IMG/VR virus record: IMGVR_UViG_3300031278_000016
Coordinates: 1-21,960 of that record
Reading direction: 5' to 3' (one strand)
DNA from: a virus
DNA: 21,960 nt
A program made the translations under genes and the position numbers. The notes below the pieces were generated by a model. That model had not been told where the DNA came from. It did no database searches and worked only from the letters and a program-made list of their open reading frames with translations. The stretch's first letter is position 1. Every line of letters begins with the position of its first letter. Shown piece by piece: positions 331 to 19,130 of this stretch.

Positions 331-759
331 ATGACCCTTTATTACCAAGATAATCACATTACGATTTTAAATGGCCATGTCCTCACAGAGTTAAGAGGCC
401 TCCCCAGTGAGTCGATACAGTGTGTTTGCACATCGCCACCTTACTGGGGCCTAAGAGATTATGGCCTTGAACCGCAGATATGGGATGACCCAGGGGGATG
501 TGAGCACGAGTGGGTGGCCACCGAAGCTCCCGGTGGAAATGGGTCTGGAACTTCCTTTCATCGTAATAAAGAACATGCCGCCCGAATCCGTGGAGGCCTC
601 CAGCCTGGATTTTGCCTCCATTGCGGAGCCTGGCGTGGCTCCCTGGGCCTCGAACCAGTACCGGACTGTGGAAGGCCATTTATGGAATTAAAACCAGATT
701 TAACAGAAAAAGAAAGAGAATATGTAATGGATGAATTAAAGAAAGCGGGGTTGATTTAA
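331..759 (+). CDS. N-terminal half of a split DNA methyltransferase (beta-class N4/N6)
   Basis: This ORF carries the catalytic motif IV TSPPYWGLRDYG at residues 34-45, typical of amino-methyltransferases that modify N6 of adenine or N4 of cytosine. A Cys/His cluster follows (CEH near residue 57, then CLHC) and then WRGSLGLEPVPD, a segment that in phage methylases of this type is normally followed closely by a helix like the one at residues 31-48 of the downstream ORF at 1417. Here the ORF instead runs 26 further residues (FMELKPDLTEKE...) and stops at a TAA whose TTAA palindrome is also the stop of the antisense HNH gene. The AdoMet-binding motif I is missing from this half and found in the ORF at 1417-2436. 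The gene is therefore split by the HNH insertion; whether the two halves assemble into an enzyme is not known. Confidence 0.85.
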   Translation: MTLYYQDNHITILNGHVLTELRGLPSESIQCVCTSPPYWGLRDYGLEPQIWDDPGGCEHEWVATEAPGGNGSGTSFHRNKEHAARIRGGLQPGFCLHCGAWRGSLGLEPVPDCGRPFMELKPDLTEKEREYVMDELKKAGLI

Positions 760-1376
760 CGTGGAATCTTTGGCTTTTTCATGCCCTTATGTGCTTTTTG
801 ATGACATGGTTTACAAAGAGTTATTCCATTATCAAGATCATAGGCAAGGTCAGGTCTTTCCCAATAATGTATTTTATGGTGAATTTGAAGGACAATCTTT
901 TTTCCATTTCCATTCTTTGCACCACATTTTTGGCAAGTATAATTATCCCTTACAAGGCATTTATCATGCCATTCAATATACTCAGGCTCTTTGTAGCGAG
1001 CTTGCCTTGATTTTGCAAGACCACCTTTCCACATGGGATGATCTGGGCCTGATTTGCGTGGAGCATTTTTCATTCCCTCGACCCAAGCATTTATTACTTT
1101 TTGAGAAGGTTTCCTGCCTGTTGGTTTACCCTTCAATGCTTTGGAAATTCTTCTTTTCTTTTTTTCAGGGCATGGCACACCTAATGAGGTTGGTTTCCCT
1201 TTCCTTGATTCAGAAATCTTTTTACGGGCTTTATCAGATTTTGCAGGGTTGCGAAGAGGGTTATTTCTATAAGCCATTTTACACGCAACAGAACAAAACT
1301 CTTGGTCTTCACGCATACGCTTTGAAAATTCTTGGCCACATTGTTTACAAATTTTCGTTCTTATTCGATAAACCAT
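756..1376 (-). CDS. HNH homing endonuclease with NUMOD3-like repeats, antisense, splitting the methyltransferase gene
   Basis: A 206-residue protein on the minus strand. Residues 10-32 hold a Cys4 zinc knuckle (C10, C13, C28, C32). Residues about 47-67 and 72-92 are two NUMOD3-like DNA-binding repeats (SESRKGKPT and SKALKGKPTGRK). Residues 148-196 are the HNH nuclease: CQKC, the IHHK catalytic pair (H166, H167), N183 and a closing CKPCHQKAH. This order is typical of phage homing endonucleases. An AGAGG ribosome binding site precedes the ATG on the minus strand. The gene ends at the TTAA shared with the stop of the upstream methyltransferase half, and only about 40 bases separate its start from the downstream half. 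I see no group I intron core around it, so it looks like a free-standing endonuclease inserted in a gene rather than an intron-borne one. Confidence 0.9.
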   Translation of the reverse strand: MVYRIRTKICKQCGQEFSKRMREDQEFCSVACKMAYRNNPLRNPAKSDKARKKISESRKGKPTSLGVPCPEKKKRRISKALKGKPTGRKPSQKVINAWVEGMKNAPRKSGPDHPMWKGGLAKSRQARYKEPEYIEWHDKCLVRDNYTCQKCGAKNGNGKKIVLQIHHKIHYWERPDLAYDLDNGITLCKPCHQKAHKGMKKPKIPR

Positions 1377-10119: not shown

Positions 10120-12216
10120 ATGCCGCTAGCAGTACCAGAACGTACAACCGGATCGTTGGGCATAGGTTCATCACGCGGGCTCGTACAGGTGCTCAGCAAC
10201 AGGCAGATCTCCGATATGGAGGATGCTGAGCGAGCCAAGTTCGAGGCCCAACAAGAACAGCAGAAAGAACCCATGCTCAGACTCGCTGATCATATCACGG
10301 GCTGCTGGCAGGCTGCCCAAAATTCCAAGATCGAAATGGAGCAGCGACTGCTCAAATGCATGCGGCAGCGCAACGGGGTCTATGACCCGGATGACCTTGC
10401 AAAGATCAGGAAGCATGGTGGTTCAGAGATCTATATGATGCTGACCAATATGAAATGCCGGGCTGCCGAGGCGTGGATCAAGGACGTGATGATCCCCGCG
10501 GGCGAACGACCATGGTCTTTCGAGCATACTCCTATCCCTGATCTGCCCGAAGAGGTATCTGCCAATATAGAGAAGGTGGTTTCCCTCGAGGCATACCGCG
10601 CCGTGCGGGAGATCGGCCCAGAGGCTCTGTCACCTCAGGGAATCAGTAAGATTATCAAGCGGCTCAAGGATGAAAAGCTCAAAGAAGAGATAGAGTTGGC
10701 CAAGCAGACGGCCGCGAACATGGAACGCTACGTTGAGGATCAGCTGGTAGAGGGCAAATATTACCATGCGCTCAGCGAGTTTATCACCGACCTGGTGACC
10801 TATCCGGCGGCCTTTATGATGGGCCCAGTAGTGAAGCAGCGCAAAAGTTTGGTGTGGACCAAAAACGATTTTGGCCAGCCGGTACCGTCAGTCGGTAAGA
10901 AGCTCAAGCGGGAATATATCGATGTATCACCCTTTGATATATATCCATCCCCTGGCGCCAAGCATGTTCAGGACGGCTATCTGATCCACCGACTCAAATA
11001 CCGGAGAAGCGACCTCGAATCGTTGAAAGGAGTGCCTGGGTTCAGCAGTCAGACGATCGATGCGGTGCTTCTCGACTATGGCCGAGGAGGACTCAAGGAT
11101 TGGTTATGGACTGATCAGCAAAGGGCAGAGGGGGAAGCAACCCCCCAGGAGTATATTGACCCCGAACCCATCTTCCATGTGCTCCTCTTCTGGGGACAGG
11201 CTCAAGGAGATATGCTCAGGGAATGGGGCATGACCGAAAAGCAGGTACCAGACCTTACCAAAAACTATGACATCTCGGCTATGCAGATCGGCCGCTATCT
11301 TATTATGGCAAGGCTCAACGAGAGCCCCCTGGGGATGAGGCCATATTACTCCGCATGCTACGAGAATCAGAATAATAGCATATGGGGCAAGGCCCTGCCC
11401 GAGCTCATGCGGGATATCCAGCGCTTATGCAATGCTACTGCCCGGGCTCTGGTCAACAACATGGGCATAGCCAGCGGGCCGCAGGTAGAAGTGCAGATGG
11501 ACCGCCTGGAAGCGGGCGAGGACGTAGAAGACATCTATCCGTGGAAGGTTACTAAAACAAAGAGCGATAAACAGGGCAGGAATCGTCAGGCTATCTATTA
11601 TTACCAGGCGCAGATGAATGCCGAGCCCCTGATCCACGTTTACGATTATTTCTTCAAGCAGGCCTCTGAGGTAACCGGAATACCTGCCTATATCTACGGT
11701 TCAGAGAATGTTGGCGGTGCTGGCAAAACCGCGTCAGGATTGAGTATGCTCATGAATGCGGCAAGCAAAACAATGAAGGGAGTCGTTTTTCATGTAGATC
11801 AAGGGGTAATCATACCATCGGTAACATACCATTGGGTGCACGTTATGCTTTACGACAAGAATATCGACAAAACCGGAGATATCAACGTACGGGCCAGGGC
11901 CAGCGACCATCTCATCATGCAGGAGCAGCTGCAAATGAGGAGAGGCGAATACCTCAATAGCACCAATAATCCTACGGACATGGCAATCATTGGTCTCAAA
12001 GGTAGGGCTGCTATGCATCGAGAACAAGTAAAATCCTTGAAAATGGCTGTCGATGAGGTTGTGCCGACCAAGGAAATGATGGAGCAGCGGGAGATTGCAG
12101 AACAGAAAGCGCGGGCAGAAGCTATTCCTGGAGGTCCCGAGGCTACACCACTCAATCCCGATGGATCGCCTAAGGGCAGAGAACCGGGGAGGACAATGCA
12201 GAATGCTGCTGGATAG
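10120..12216 (+). CDS. Portal protein (head-tail connector)
   Basis: A 698-residue protein preceded by an AAGGGAGTG ribosome binding site. Its size, its place after the terminase, and its sequence (for example LPELMRDIQRLCNATARALVNNMGIASGPQVEV near the middle, and the segment SEVTGIPAYIYGSENVGGAGKTASGLSMLMNAASK) fit podovirus-type portals. Dodecameric portals form the ring through which the terminase packages DNA and to which the adaptors at 20464 and 21124 attach. The N-terminal 60 residues are Gln/Glu-rich, and the C terminus ends in a Pro/Gly-rich tail (PGGPEATPLNPDGSPKG). The gene overlaps the next start by 14 bases. Confidence 0.85.
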   Translation: MPLAVPERTTGSLGIGSSRGLVQVLSNRQISDMEDAERAKFEAQQEQQKEPMLRLADHITGCWQAAQNSKIEMEQRLLKCMRQRNGVYDPDDLAKIRKHGGSEIYMMLTNMKCRAAEAWIKDVMIPAGERPWSFEHTPIPDLPEEVSANIEKVVSLEAYRAVREIGPEALSPQGISKIIKRLKDEKLKEEIELAKQTAANMERYVEDQLVEGKYYHALSEFITDLVTYPAAFMMGPVVKQRKSLVWTKNDFGQPVPSVGKKLKREYIDVSPFDIYPSPGAKHVQDGYLIHRLKYRRSDLESLKGVPGFSSQTIDAVLLDYGRGGLKDWLWTDQQRAEGEATPQEYIDPEPIFHVLLFWGQAQGDMLREWGMTEKQVPDLTKNYDISAMQIGRYLIMARLNESPLGMRPYYSACYENQNNSIWGKALPELMRDIQRLCNATARALVNNMGIASGPQVEVQMDRLEAGEDVEDIYPWKVTKTKSDKQGRNRQAIYYYQAQMNAEPLIHVYDYFFKQASEVTGIPAYIYGSENVGGAGKTASGLSMLMNAASKTMKGVVFHVDQGVIIPSVTYHWVHVMLYDKNIDKTGDINVRARASDHLIMQEQLQMRRGEYLNSTNNPTDMAIIGLKGRAAMHREQVKSLKMAVDEVVPTKEMMEQREIAEQKARAEAIPGGPEATPLNPDGSPKGREPGRTMQNAAG

Positions 12217-13573: not shown

Positions 13574-13945
13574 ATGCCTACTTCAACAGACTTGGTAAAC
13601 GCCATCAATCAAGAAATAGCTAAGCAACCAAAAGGACATGTTGCTCGCTCAATTTTCAATGTAGAAGCAATGAAAGAAACATATGATTTTGGTCATTTTA
13701 TTAGATTTGTAAGTATTTCTGAGGATGGAAATGCTAACAAACAAATTGCATTTAAATTGAAGTCTTTTTTATCGCCGTTATACGCAGCTTTTGCATCAGC
13801 TCCCGAAGTTGAAGAGAAGTTTATGTTCGATGAATCATTTAAACAAGAAGTAATGGCTCAAATTTATGAAAAACTAAAAAACGCATGGATACAAGACAGA
13901 AAAATGTGGGGACAGGGAGGGGACAACATTCTGAAAAAGGATTGA
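13574..13945 (+). CDS. Hypothetical protein, 123 aa, AT-rich
   Basis: A 123-residue ORF with a GAGG ribosome binding site. It is noticeably more AT-rich than its neighbours (many AAA, TTT and AAT codons), which suggests separate acquisition. A helical start (TDLVNAINQEIAKQ) leads into a mixed region (FNVEAMKETYDFGHFIRFVSISEDG) and a helical C terminus (QEVMAQIYEKLKNAWIQDRKMW). No family is recognised. It begins an accessory block lying between the structural genes. Confidence 0.6.
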   Translation: MPTSTDLVNAINQEIAKQPKGHVARSIFNVEAMKETYDFGHFIRFVSISEDGNANKQIAFKLKSFLSPLYAAFASAPEVEEKFMFDESFKQEVMAQIYEKLKNAWIQDRKMWGQGGDNILKKD

Positions 13946-15228: not shown

Positions 15229-15275
15229 AAGCCCCATTGGATAATTTTAAAAGATTATTCGTGGGGCTTTCTTTT
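15229..15275 (+). terminator. Rho-independent terminator, plus strand
   Basis: AAGCCCCA (15229-15236) pairs with TGGGGCTT (15262-15269), and an AT-rich inner stem (ATAATTTT with AAAAGATTAT) extends it. A T-rich run follows. It would end transcription arriving from the accessory genes. The right arm also covers the last codons of the antisense HNH gene. Confidence 0.65.
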
Positions 15276-15767
15276 TAGTGAATTTAGATCAAGGAGGACA
15301 TCTCCTTTGCCAGCATTGCATTCAAAACAACTTGTAATGAGGCTTTCTTCAATGGTCTCCCCACCCTTTGAAAAAGGGACTATGTGGTCAACAACAAGTT
15401 TTGCACCATCTTGTGGAGTTCTACCACAATATTGGCATGTAAAGTTATCCCTTTTGAGGATTTTAAACCGAAATGCCAAATGGTTTTTAGAGCTATTTAT
15501 CCGTTTATGTTTGAGTTTCTTTTTCCTGACAGGATTTTCAAAATGGAACAAATGGTCGGGATTAGCAGAACCGCTTTCTACCAAAGGAAGCCCAGCTAAT
15601 GTCATTGCCTTCGCAAATGTCCCAAAATGGTTACGGTATGCTCCTCTTGATGGAAAATTCGACAGCCTTTTTGAGTCCCGTTCGCTTGGGCTATGGCCTA
15701 ATACTTCAGAGGCTTCAACCAATTTAGATAGTAAATATGCTTTCGTAAAACCAGTTTTAGTTCTCAT
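15255..15767 (-). CDS. HNH endonuclease with homing-endonuclease-associated repeat, antisense
   Basis: A 170-residue minus-strand protein; ATG at 15767 is preferred, with an in-frame TTG at 15773 as alternative. Residues 8-60 (KAYLLSKLVEASEVLGHSPSERD...FGTFAKAMTLAGL) match the small helical repeat found at the N terminus of some homing endonucleases. Residues 111-155 are a compact HNH nuclease: CQYC, DHIVPFSKGG with D127 and H128, and closing CFECNAGKGD. It is the second of three antisense HNH genes here and belongs to a different subfamily from the other two. It stands alone between two terminator-like hairpins, in an intergenic gap rather than a gene. A ribosome binding site is not obvious. 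Confidence 0.85.
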   Translation of the reverse strand: MRTKTGFTKAYLLSKLVEASEVLGHSPSERDSKRLSNFPSRGAYRNHFGTFAKAMTLAGLPLVESGSANPDHLFHFENPVRKKKLKHKRINSSKNHLAFRFKILKRDNFTCQYCGRTPQDGAKLVVDHIVPFSKGGETIEESLITSCFECNAGKGDVLLDLNSLKRKPHE

Positions 15768-15810
15768 ACTCAAATTCTATAGGGGCTTTATTTGTAAGTC
15801 AATTAAATTA

Positions 15811-15933: not shown

Positions 15934-17091
15934 ATGGCAGAGGAGAAAAAGACAGACCAAGAACTGGAAGGCATGCCTTCAAACGTCACAGCACAGGGCG
16001 AGAAGGCAGATGAGCTTCAACAAGGGCTCATCAACGGGAAGACCGGGGAAGGCTCCGAGACTCCACCGGAGACCCCTGCTCAGGCTCCCAAGGAAGGCGG
16101 AGAGGGAAAGCCCGAAGAGGAGAAAAAGGAGTTTACCTGCCAAGTATGCGGAAAGTCATTCGGCTCCCAGCAGGCGCTTGCAGCGCACTCACGGGTACAC
16201 GCTGAAAAGCCTGAAGAGGAGAAAGCCAAGGGAGAAGGAGACTTCAAGCAGAAATACGAGGTGCTCCAAGGCAAATACGATGCTGAGATACCACGGTTCC
16301 GTCAACAGAATGCAGAGCTAAGAGTCGCACTCGACAGTGCCAATGAGACCATATCCAACCTGAATACCATCGTGAAAGAGCTCAAGGGCGCGCAGCACGG
16401 AGAGGAAGCCCCCCCGGAAGACGGCAAGGCCACACCTGCGCAAGCGGGGAGCGGCCAGCTAGCTCCGACACAGAAGCTCAATCCAGAGGATTTCGAAGGA
16501 TATGGCGATGAGATGAAAAACTTAGTCAGTTCGTTCAACGCCCTCGTCAACGAAAACGCCCAGCTCAAAAATCTTGTAGGCGGCGTTTCGCAACGAGTGT
16601 TGGTGAGCGACAAGGACCGCTATTACGACAAACTCGATAAAGCGGTCAAGGACTGGGAAACGATCAATAAAACCCCTGAGTTCGTTCAATGGTTGGATGA
16701 CGTTGATCTCATGAGCGGTCGAACACGCGATTCTCTCCTGCAGGAAGCGGATAAGAAGATGGACTCCCAGCGCGTAGTCAATATCTTCAACGCCTTCAAA
16801 AAGGGAAAAGGCATGCCTCTTGGTGGCAACGGTGGAGGATCTTCTGCTGAAACACCCCCTACGGAGACCCCTAAGGCTGAAACCCCCTCTGGTATGGAAT
16901 CGGAGCTTCTGCCAGATGAAAGCGGAGGGGAATCGGCTATTCCCACAGAAAAACAGCCCATATTGCCAGAGACGATATCGAAGGCAGCCAGGGACTACGT
17001 GGACGGGAAGATAACAGAGGAAAAGTACAACGAGATAACCAATGAATTTCAAAAGCAACAACTCAATCCCCAGCCGGCGGGTCGCAGATAG
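15934..17091 (+). CDS. Scaffolding protein with an embedded C2H2 zinc finger
   Basis: A 385-residue acidic protein directly before the major capsid gene, where podovirus-type phages encode the scaffold that shapes the prohead. Low-complexity Glu/Pro/Gly stretches, a central coiled coil (about residues 105-150, EVLQGKYDAEIPRFRQQNAELRVALDSANE and onward) and a second helical part (about 185-220) fit that role, as does the helical C terminus (AARDYVDGKITEEKYNEITNEF). Unusually, residues 69-89 are a complete classical zinc finger: C69-x2-C72-x12-H85-x3-H89, with conserved F and L between. Scaffold assignment is by position and composition; the zinc finger is read directly. Confidence 0.75.
   Translation: MAEEKKTDQELEGMPSNVTAQGEKADELQQGLINGKTGEGSETPPETPAQAPKEGGEGKPEEEKKEFTCQVCGKSFGSQQALAAHSRVHAEKPEEEKAKGEGDFKQKYEVLQGKYDAEIPRFRQQNAELRVALDSANETISNLNTIVKELKGAQHGEEAPPEDGKATPAQAGSGQLAPTQKLNPEDFEGYGDEMKNLVSSFNALVNENAQLKNLVGGVSQRVLVSDKDRYYDKLDKAVKDWETINKTPEFVQWLDDVDLMSGRTRDSLLQEADKKMDSQRVVNIFNAFKKGKGMPLGGNGGGSSAETPPTETPKAETPSGMESELLPDESGGESAIPTEKQPILPETISKAARDYVDGKITEEKYNEITNEFQKQQLNPQPAGRR
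16138..16200 (+). other. C2H2 zinc-finger coding segment in the scaffold gene
   Basis: These 21 codons encode CQVC, then GKSFGSQQALAA, then HSRVH. The spacing C-x2-C-x12-H-x3-H and the F and L positions match the eukaryotic-type finger, and the QQALAAH part resembles the QALGGH signature of plant fingers. The finger lies between acidic low-complexity linkers. Confidence 0.85.
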
Positions 17092-17145: not shown

Positions 17146-19130
17146 ATGACTATAAACGCAGCATCTGGATCCCCGCAGTATAGCGGGACATTCATACCGG
17201 AGATTTGGTCCGGTAAGTTATTGGTCAAGTTCTATGCGGCTACGGTCCTGGCGGCTATCGCCAATACCGATTACGAGGGTGAAACGGAATGATCTTGCCC
17301 TCGTTAAACGCCTCTAATTGCTGGAACACCCTAAAGCTCACGCTCCACAGCGTGGCCGGTAACGGCGTGCGCGAAGGATTGAAAAGTCGTGTGATGAGAC
17401 AATGGGCAATCAGCAGCCAAACGGCCTGGAAACGGGTTGAAGGTTCAACGACTAGGGTAAGTACCCTTCTCGCCAAAGCGATGGGAAAAACCTCACGAAT
17501 GGGGCGTATTTTTCTGTTTGTATTTGCGTTTTTGGCTACGTTTCAGATCGGCATGAAGACGAATATGATCAGCGTTGCTATTCAGCAACATCAGATTCTC
17601 GATTCGATTATCCGAGGTATCCCCGTTGATATGGTGGACTACCTCAGTTCGTTTCAATCTTCTACCGATGTGTCCTTCCATCACCAGCCTATGCAACATC
17701 ACGTAACCCTTAGTCCCAGCATCAGGATGGTCTGGCCGATACCCCATTATATATCCTCCGTGCTTGGCAAAGCCGGAATGATAAGGGTCATCGACCTTCA
17801 CTCCGGCCTGTTTCGCCAATTTGCGGATCCACGTTGGAGTTACTTCGAAGATCTTCGCAATCTGTTGAGTGGACAGTCCATTCATCGCCATTTTGACAAT
17901 GATGTCAACAGGAGGAGTCTTGCGTTTGTTCCTCTCAATCCCGAAACGCTTCATATATCGGAGTACAAGTTTCTTGGAAACTCCATACTTACTGGCGATT
18001 TTGACAGACGATCCAAGCTCTTCGTAGTCATGCCGCAATTCATCCTTGGTGATAGAGAATTTTCGAGGGATGCTTTTTACGCGAGCGATATTGTACTTTT
18101 TCATCCAAGAGAGAATCGTCAAACGCTTCGCGCCGTATTTTTTGGCCAACTTATAGAGGGACTGCAACTCTGCGTAATCCCGGCGCAAAGTCTCTTTACC
18201 GATAAGGAAGGTACGCTTGGCTGGCATGAACGATACTTTATCACCATCAAAACAAAAACGCAACAGAAAAATAATGATATAGTCTGGCCTTGTGGGAAAC
18301 CACAAGAGGACAGGATAAAGAACCTGTCGATAACATCAAAGGAGATCAAGAATAAGGGCGACAAGGTGATCATTCGGCAGACCCCTGATATCACCATCCG
18401 CGATTACTCCAAAGGTCAAACCCTCACGATCGAGCGGCCGGAGAGCCCGACTATAGAAATGGAGATAGACAAGGCGAAGTACTTCAATTTCATCTGCGAT
18501 GATATTGATCGGCACCAGAGCGATATCAAGCTCATGGACAATTGGTCCGGGGATGCGAGCAAGCAGATGAAGATCACCGTCGATGAAGGTGCACTCGCCG
18601 ATTTCTACTCCGATGCTCATGCCAGCAATAAAGGTATCGCTGCTGGTGCAAAGAGCGGTGACATCAACCTAGGTACCACTGCATCGCCTGTGGTGATAAG
18701 CAAAACTATTATCCTGGAGAAGATCGTGGATATCGGGACAGTCCTCGACGAGCAGAACGTCCCAGACGAAAGCAGATGGCTGATTATCCCTCCATGGGTA
18801 AGTGGCATGATCAAAAAGTCCGACCTCAAGGATGCCTCTCTCACCGGTGACGGTCAGAGCATCCTGCGAAACGGTCGGTTGGGGGGAATCGATAGATTGA
18901 CCTTATACCTCAGCAACCTGCTTACCAGTGTTTCCGATACCGGATTTACCTGCTGGCATATCATCGGCGGTCAGCGAAACGGCTTATCCTTTGCCGCCCA
19001 GATGACCGAGATGGAGACCCTCAGGGCCGAAAGCACGTTCGGCAACCTGGTGAGAGGGCTCAACGTATATGGCTATAAGGTTCTCAAGACTGAGGCCGTC
19101 GTAGACCTGTACGTGCGCAAAGGCCAATAG
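17146..19130 (+). CDS. Major capsid protein, interrupted by a group I intron (join 17146-17280, 18342-19130)
   Basis: Exon 1 (45 codons, after a GGGAGGAGGAA ribosome binding site) and exon 2 (262 codons plus stop) join in frame at GGT|GAG to restore [13 protein letters not shown], a conserved capsid segment. The spliced protein has 307 residues. Features of this podovirus-type capsid family are present: [18 protein letters not shown] at the start, [14 protein letters not shown] and [22 protein letters not shown], then [22 protein letters not shown] with [21 protein letters not shown], and the C-terminal [22 protein letters not shown]. It forms the shell around the scaffold. Without splicing, translation would stop after 48 codons at 17290-17292, so intron removal is needed for any capsid. 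Confidence 0.9.
17281..18341 (+). ncRNA. Group I self-splicing intron in the major capsid gene
   Basis: Pairings can be read directly. P1: exon ACGAGGGT (17273-17280) with GCCCTCGT (17297-17304), eight pairs ending in the U-G at the 5' site. P10: intron GATCTT (17291-17296) with exon 2 GAGATC, six pairs. P, Q, R and S lie near 17316-17337, 17401-17421, 17443-17457 and 18275-18286. P4 is TTGCTG with CAGCAG; P7 is GACTA (17450-17454) with TAGTC (18280-18284). P3 is probably CGCCTC (17309-17314) with GGGGCG (17501-17506). Two hairpins between P7 and P3 (GGGTA/TACCC and CGC/GCG) suggest subgroup IA. P9 is CTTGTGG-GAAA-CCACAAG, followed by GACAGG/CCTGTC. The intron ends in G at 18341. An antisense HNH gene fills the P8 region. 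Confidence 0.92.
17493..18227 (-). CDS. HNH homing endonuclease in the capsid intron, antisense
   Basis: A 244-residue minus-strand protein. The ATG at 18227 is chosen because an earlier in-frame start (18305) would place codons across the intron's P7 and P9 elements. Residues about 14-50, 63-99 and 105-142 are three successive helix-turn-helix-like repeats ([20 protein letters not shown]..., [20 protein letters not shown]..., [27 protein letters not shown]). The C-terminal HNH part (about 172-226) reads [28 protein letters not shown] with H198, H199 and N201, DNRIENL, then H221 and H225. The DNA-binding part precedes the nuclease, the reverse of some phage intron enzymes. Its last codons overlap the probable P3' strand. 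It would spread the intron by cutting intronless capsid genes. Confidence 0.9.

Follow-up and report, generated by a model that had tools for sequence, protein, structure and literature searches.

The window, a 21,960-nt stretch of viral DNA (positions 1 to 21,960 of the IMG/VR virus record IMGVR_UViG_3300031278_000016), carries a phage head module, the features of which are listed in Table 1. An ORF encoding a 385-aa protein lies downstream of the gene for a SU10-like portal protein and directly upstream of the major capsid protein (MCP) gene, and thus occupies the scaffold position. The MCP gene is interrupted by a group I intron, which holds an HNH ORF on the minus strand (17493-18305), giving an endonuclease in antisense orientation to the intron. 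A second HNH endonuclease gene (15255-15773, minus strand), containing a homing-associated repeat (PF18780), is located directly upstream of the scaffold-position gene, and the product of an ORF at 756-1376 (minus strand), with two CxxC-type motifs and an HH pair, also looks HNH-type. A 123-aa ORF without a PHROG match (13574-13945) lies in a stretch that is absent from the near-identical contig L001 (junction 13568/13949).

Table 1. Head-module features in the window and the evidence for each
Feature	Coordinates	Strand	Evidence
Portal protein (SU10-like)	10120..12216	+	Pfam PF23899, 48 bits; phrog_332, E 1.1e-45; phrog_1216 (portal), 6.1e-15
Scaffold-position protein with predicted finger, 385 aa	15934..17091	+	ORF; phrog_13678, E 8.8e-24
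Variable K/E/P-rich disordered arm with predicted finger, residues 35-100	16036..16233	+	AlphaFold2 pLDDT ~40; varies in homologues
Predicted C2H2 zinc finger, residues 67-89	16132..16200	+	Pfam PF13912, AlphaFold2, Foldseek
Conserved D-[FW]-x2-K-Y-x-VLQGKY, start of long helix, residues 103-155	16240..16398	+	Alignment, AlphaFold2
MCP exon 1, 45 codons	17146..17280	+	Read from sequence, matched to the uninterrupted MCP of L002
Group I intron in MCP gene	17281..18341	+	Rfam RF00028, 64 bits; splice ends inferred from reading frame, matched to L002 MCP
MCP exon 2	18342..19130	+	phrog_267 (major head protein), E 1.8e-42; 46% identity to Rhizobium phage MCP

The 385-aa protein matches phrog_13678 over most of the family length (85.7 bits; residues 14-294 on profile positions 6-230 of 300). 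Homologues of this family include L002, L131-L158 and a protein of Rhizobium phage RHph_TM3_14A (QIG67478.1), and the family stands directly before the MCP in L002, L003 and the Rhizobium phage. In the AlphaFold2 model, a short N-terminal helix is followed by a long disordered arm, a helix (residues 103-155), a helical domain (residues 192-292) and two C-terminal helices, and residues D103, Y108, L111 and G113 are near-invariant in a 24-sequence alignment. From its position and this predicted helical architecture, we infer that the ORF encodes the scaffold protein. The first-pass annotation had spoken directly of a phage scaffold gene, a label that is borne out by the location between portal and MCP genes and by the predicted helices, but that should be read as 'probable scaffold', phrog_13678 being annotated 'unknown function'. 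This annotation would also suit some other internal head protein, with the finger described below serving that other role; however, the placement directly upstream of the MCP, kept in homologues, and the extended helical architecture with disordered linkers make such a carrier improbable.

The predicted finger and its absence from homologues

Residues 67-89 of the protein (FTCQVCGKSFGSQQALAAHSRVH) contain the four putative zinc ligands C69, C72, H85 and H89, with C69 starting at position 16138 and H89 ending at 16200. The standard C69-x2-C72-x12-H85-x3-H89 spacing, with the core residues F76 and L82, is exactly as the first-pass annotation gave it, and the segment matches Pfam zf-C2H2_6 (PF13912) with 31 bits (E 2.4e-7), where the gathering cut-off is 25; the zf-C2H2 profile (PF00096) scores 22.9 bits on the same finger, slightly below its cut-off. 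The motif occurred in none of 200,000 shuffles of the 385-aa protein. Structure prediction of the finger segment, proposed in that annotation as a check, yielded the beta-beta-alpha fold of the C2H2 class: the AlphaFold2 model of residues 60-96, built from an alignment made with other phage fingers, consists of two short strands and a helix (fragment positions 20-31), with core pLDDT above 90. In the full-length model the finger is unfolded and residues 35-100 are unstructured, because no homologue in its alignment has the finger. The best Foldseek matches of the fragment are C2H2 fingers of known structure, among them the QALGGH finger of Arabidopsis SUPERMAN (1njq), with E-values that are weak because the fragment is short. 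The window finger reads QALAAH, departing from the strict QALGGH helix motif of plant EPF/SUPERMAN proteins. On profile and model evidence, the protein carries a genuine C2H2 finger that is predicted to bind zinc.

Two artefactual or local origins were considered and rejected. A frameshift is contradicted by the open frame, the normal start, the in-frame PF13912 match and the presence of the finger in a second contig. The HNH protein encoded immediately upstream (15255-15773, minus strand) contains a zinc knuckle, FTCQYCGR, similar to the first half of the finger; derivation of that half from the HNH gene was discarded, the DNA agreement amounting to about four shared codons and being attributed to coincidence.

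The finger is known only in the window record and in contig IMGVR_UViG_3300031368_000024, which has 99.7% DNA identity in this region. Between the two ORFs there are two differences, one synonymous and one nonsynonymous, the latter changing a single residue; both fall outside the finger, and they are too few to gauge selection. A profile search retrieved 30 loci, and the finger was found in none of the ~23 distinct homologues (19-33% identical, sister contig aside), most of which are without cysteine. A separate search by MCP retrieved 80 loci, 76 of them with an upstream ORF in scaffold position, of which none carries the finger and 74 are cysteine-free. The search for the pattern in other scaffolds that the first-pass annotation had proposed came back empty for related scaffold-position proteins other than that of the sister contig. 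Loss of the ligands in close relatives, which it regarded as an argument against the finger, applies in part: the only close relative keeps all four ligands, and the next, at 33% identity or less, are without them. C69 and C72 are the only cysteines of the window protein. The finger occupies the segment that varies most within the family, directly ahead of the conserved DFxxKYxVLQGKY motif. Since the homologues and the MCP-upstream ORFs are without it, the finger is, on this sequence comparison, an insertion specific to one lineage.

A neutral or recent passenger, dropped by recombination into a permissive disordered arm and doing nothing needed, would be expected to have just such a narrow distribution (two near-identical contigs) and to sit in the most variable segment. 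Against this, the four ligands, F76 and L82 are all preserved, the Pfam score is of full strength and the fold is predicted with confidence; the scaffold-position family is otherwise almost cysteine-free, and similar fingers are repeatedly placed in head modules (see below), suggesting use. A functionless passenger accordingly has a low probability.

Related fingers in uncultivated phages

C2H2 fingers are best known from animals and plants, and most accounts treat them as regulatory domains of eukaryotes. In 14 well-known control genomes there was no match to PF13912, which makes an impression of rarity understandable in anyone accustomed to model organisms. The statement in the first-pass annotation that it is rare in phage proteins is nevertheless wrong for uncultivated phages, as two IMG/VR pattern scans each returned at least 119 stretches. 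The first scan used the pattern C-x2-C-G-K-x-F-x5-L-x2-H-x3-H, with all listed matches open in frame, and the second required A-L before the first histidine and recovered the sister contig of the window as a positive control; this second pattern is in part responsible for the alanine at helix position 3 across the finger set. In isolated phages, a tblastn search with the 32-aa finger, a very short query, gave 12 weak matches (best E 0.9), and three carriers (L209, L182 and L234) had no tblastn match.

The matches listed fall largely into two groups. One family, with N-terminal fingers and mostly 305-340 aa in length, accounts for 135 of the 221 distinct matches listed, and one of its members matches the ERCC4-type nuclease family phrog_3490. 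Most copies in this nuclease family (L011-L129, e.g. L089:1406) are flanked by neighbours of ~350 and ~610 aa, which we take to resemble the recombination gene pairs of T4-like phages; one such neighbour, when scanned, had no PHROG match. Most of the other 86 matches listed are short proteins that end in the finger, preceded by a linker that is acidic or flexible. The 20-residue linker ahead of the C-terminal fingers has a mean net charge of -2.5, compared with -0.1 ahead of the nuclease fingers, while the finger cores average +2 in C-terminal carriers and nucleases alike (all among the matches listed).

Among the matches listed, the fingers nearest to that of the window are from other phages, with 52-58% identity over the aligned segment (58% to L209 and L202, 55% to L123). 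The GC and GC3 contents of the finger (0.58 and 0.61) are close to those of the remainder of the gene (0.53 and 0.58), and give no sign of foreign origin. Both observations speak against direct transfer from a eukaryote, which is highly improbable; it draws on the absence of PF13912 from the control genomes and on the animal origin of the top-scoring solved relatives, the latter because C2H2 structures come from there. The suggestion in the first-pass annotation of a transferred module therefore survives in one sense, that of a module acquired by a lineage whose homologues are finger-free and nearly cysteine-free, but not in the sense of a recent eukaryotic transfer.

To place the C-terminal carriers in context, those of 60-420 aa among the matches listed were sorted by sequence, after masking of the finger, into 22 families, and their neighbours were scanned against PHROGs. 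In 15 of these 22 families the carrier gene is adjacent to the MCP gene or no more than a few genes away from it, or is located between those for terminase and portal (14 of 21 if L234/L240 and L207/L249, which look like one family by eye, are merged). The carriers after the MCP belong to families L209/L123, L251, L108/L246, L234/L240, L207/L249, L183/L227, L177, L233, L197/L247 and L223, and those between terminase and portal to families L182/L023, L032, L112/L188, L231/L181 and L168; L256 and L102, too short for the 22-family set, also follow the MCP. Five families (L036, L098, L160, L194 and L238) have no recognised head neighbour, and two (L164 and L237) have too little context. The MCPs beside the carriers belong to at least nine PHROG families (1005, 1357, 1328, 133/4523, 267, 422, 25898, 29, 212 and 9953). 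As a side observation, L112, L188 and L242, in the terminase-portal gap, combine an N-terminal CxxC-type zinc motif with the C-terminal C2H2 finger.

Double CPxCG zinc-ribbon proteins, taken from the matches listed in a third pattern scan, served as a control; a neighbour could be called for 11 of their families, one of which is located in a head module. The difference from the finger carriers (Fisher exact p 0.0024, or 0.009 when only shared-pipeline neighbours are counted for the fingers) is to be read with the small size of the control, a slightly different neighbour rule, unequal neighbour effort and the post hoc nature of the pattern. These data strongly suggest that finger carriers favour head-module placement. 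The same finger type is a recurrent C-terminal tail of short head-module proteins in many unrelated uncultivated phages. Set beside a proposed class of head-module C2H2 tail proteins, the window protein shares the single finger, the flexible acidic linker and the head-module gene, and departs from it in that the finger is internal (residues 67-89 of 385) instead of C-terminal on a short protein.

Possible role and origin

The account that we put forward, with an even chance of being correct, is that the finger serves as a docking knob, folded around zinc and movable between proteins, that acts at the procapsid and packaging stage and was captured by the scaffold gene through head-module recombination. 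In the most economical version, recombination within the head module, and not a eukaryotic source, would have brought the finger into the scaffold-position gene. Tethered on the flexible arm, the finger would be shown in many copies inside the procapsid, and would bind one partner additional to whatever the helical core binds. The idea in the first-pass annotation that the finger could anchor the scaffold to capsid, portal or nucleic acid is plausible, and agrees with the location of similar fingers in the head modules of other phages.

Two kinds of partner may be envisaged for this docking knob. A protein (portal, coat or packaging protein) is slightly favoured, at somewhat below even probability, given the acidic linkers that bear the fingers and the small residues at the helix contact positions. 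Alternatively, the finger may bind DNA, capturing incoming or host DNA inside the procapsid and thereby assisting the onset of packaging or giving the signal for scaffold exit. The finger-carrying head modules, whose MCP families are unrelated, have DNA and nothing else as a shared partner. The window finger is similar to single fingers of the QALGGH class, which bind DNA (1njq was matched), its core has a net charge of +2, and the phi29 scaffold gp7 reportedly binds DNA. However, single-finger DNA binders usually need basic flanks, and the flanks of these fingers are acidic or neutral (-2 on each side in the window protein); moreover, the window finger, with S, Q, A and A at helix positions -1, 2, 3 and 6, small residues of low specificity, would make few base contacts. 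DNA binding is therefore considered somewhat less likely than docking to a protein.

Beyond the window, the recurrence of these fingers could reflect a strategy of head assembly shared by many uncultivated tailed phages, whereby various head-module proteins carry a single C2H2 finger, on a linker both flexible and acidic, to recruit a common partner; this generalization is tentative. Under such a strategy, the finger hosts would be post-MCP proteins, terminase-portal gap proteins and, here, a scaffold, acting in capsid assembly or packaging, a division of hosts that is put forward just as tentatively. The finger family itself is already known; within the data searched, its occurrence in a protein at the scaffold position had no precedent, and its repeated presence across head modules seems not to have been described before. 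A literature search for zinc fingers in phage scaffolds or as head-module tails found no description, which, with its open-access coverage, is weak evidence of novelty.

Phage scaffolds and small capsid-adjacent proteins are poorly understood. If the finger works in head assembly, it would offer a clean handle on scaffold-arm binding, through zinc chelation or ligand substitution, and a sequence signature for assembly factors in never-cultured phages. Finger tails beside MCP genes could likewise help to identify new head proteins.

Comparison with known systems

The closest structural parallels of the window finger are PF13912 and the plant QALGGH fingers (SUPERMAN, 1njq), with which it shares the C-x2-C-x12-H-x3-H spacing, the F and L positions, the predicted beta-beta-alpha fold, and Q-A-L ahead of small residues and the first histidine. 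It differs from the plant fingers in having ALAAH in place of ALGGH, acidic or mixed flanks and a phage scaffold-position host. The carrier protein resembles the other members of the phrog_13678 family (e.g. RHph_TM3_14A QIG67478.1) in its DFxxKYxVLQGKY motif, central helical domain and location directly before the MCP, but among the members examined it is the only one with a finger, and most members are cysteine-free.

Among phage proteins, the short head-module proteins (L209, L251, L234, L246, L112, L182 and others) likewise have a single finger of the same type and a flexible linker; however, theirs is C-terminal and on a separate protein, whereas the window finger is internal to a scaffold-position protein. 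The ERCC4-type nucleases (phrog_3490) also carry a single phage C2H2 finger of similar spacing, but within their first few residues, with a flank that is not acidic and no head-module neighbour identified.

The P22 and phi29 scaffolding proteins, as internal, helical and transient assembly chaperones, provide a comparison of how such proteins work, the tools used having detected no sequence relation between them and the window protein. We know of no zinc finger in either scaffold. Both phi29 gp7 and the C-terminus of the P22 scaffold have helix-loop-helix folds (review, PMC3185693). In Patience-like phages, a putative zinc site is present within the HK97-fold coat protein itself (PMC10635136), a different use of metal in the capsid from the scaffold-borne finger proposed here.
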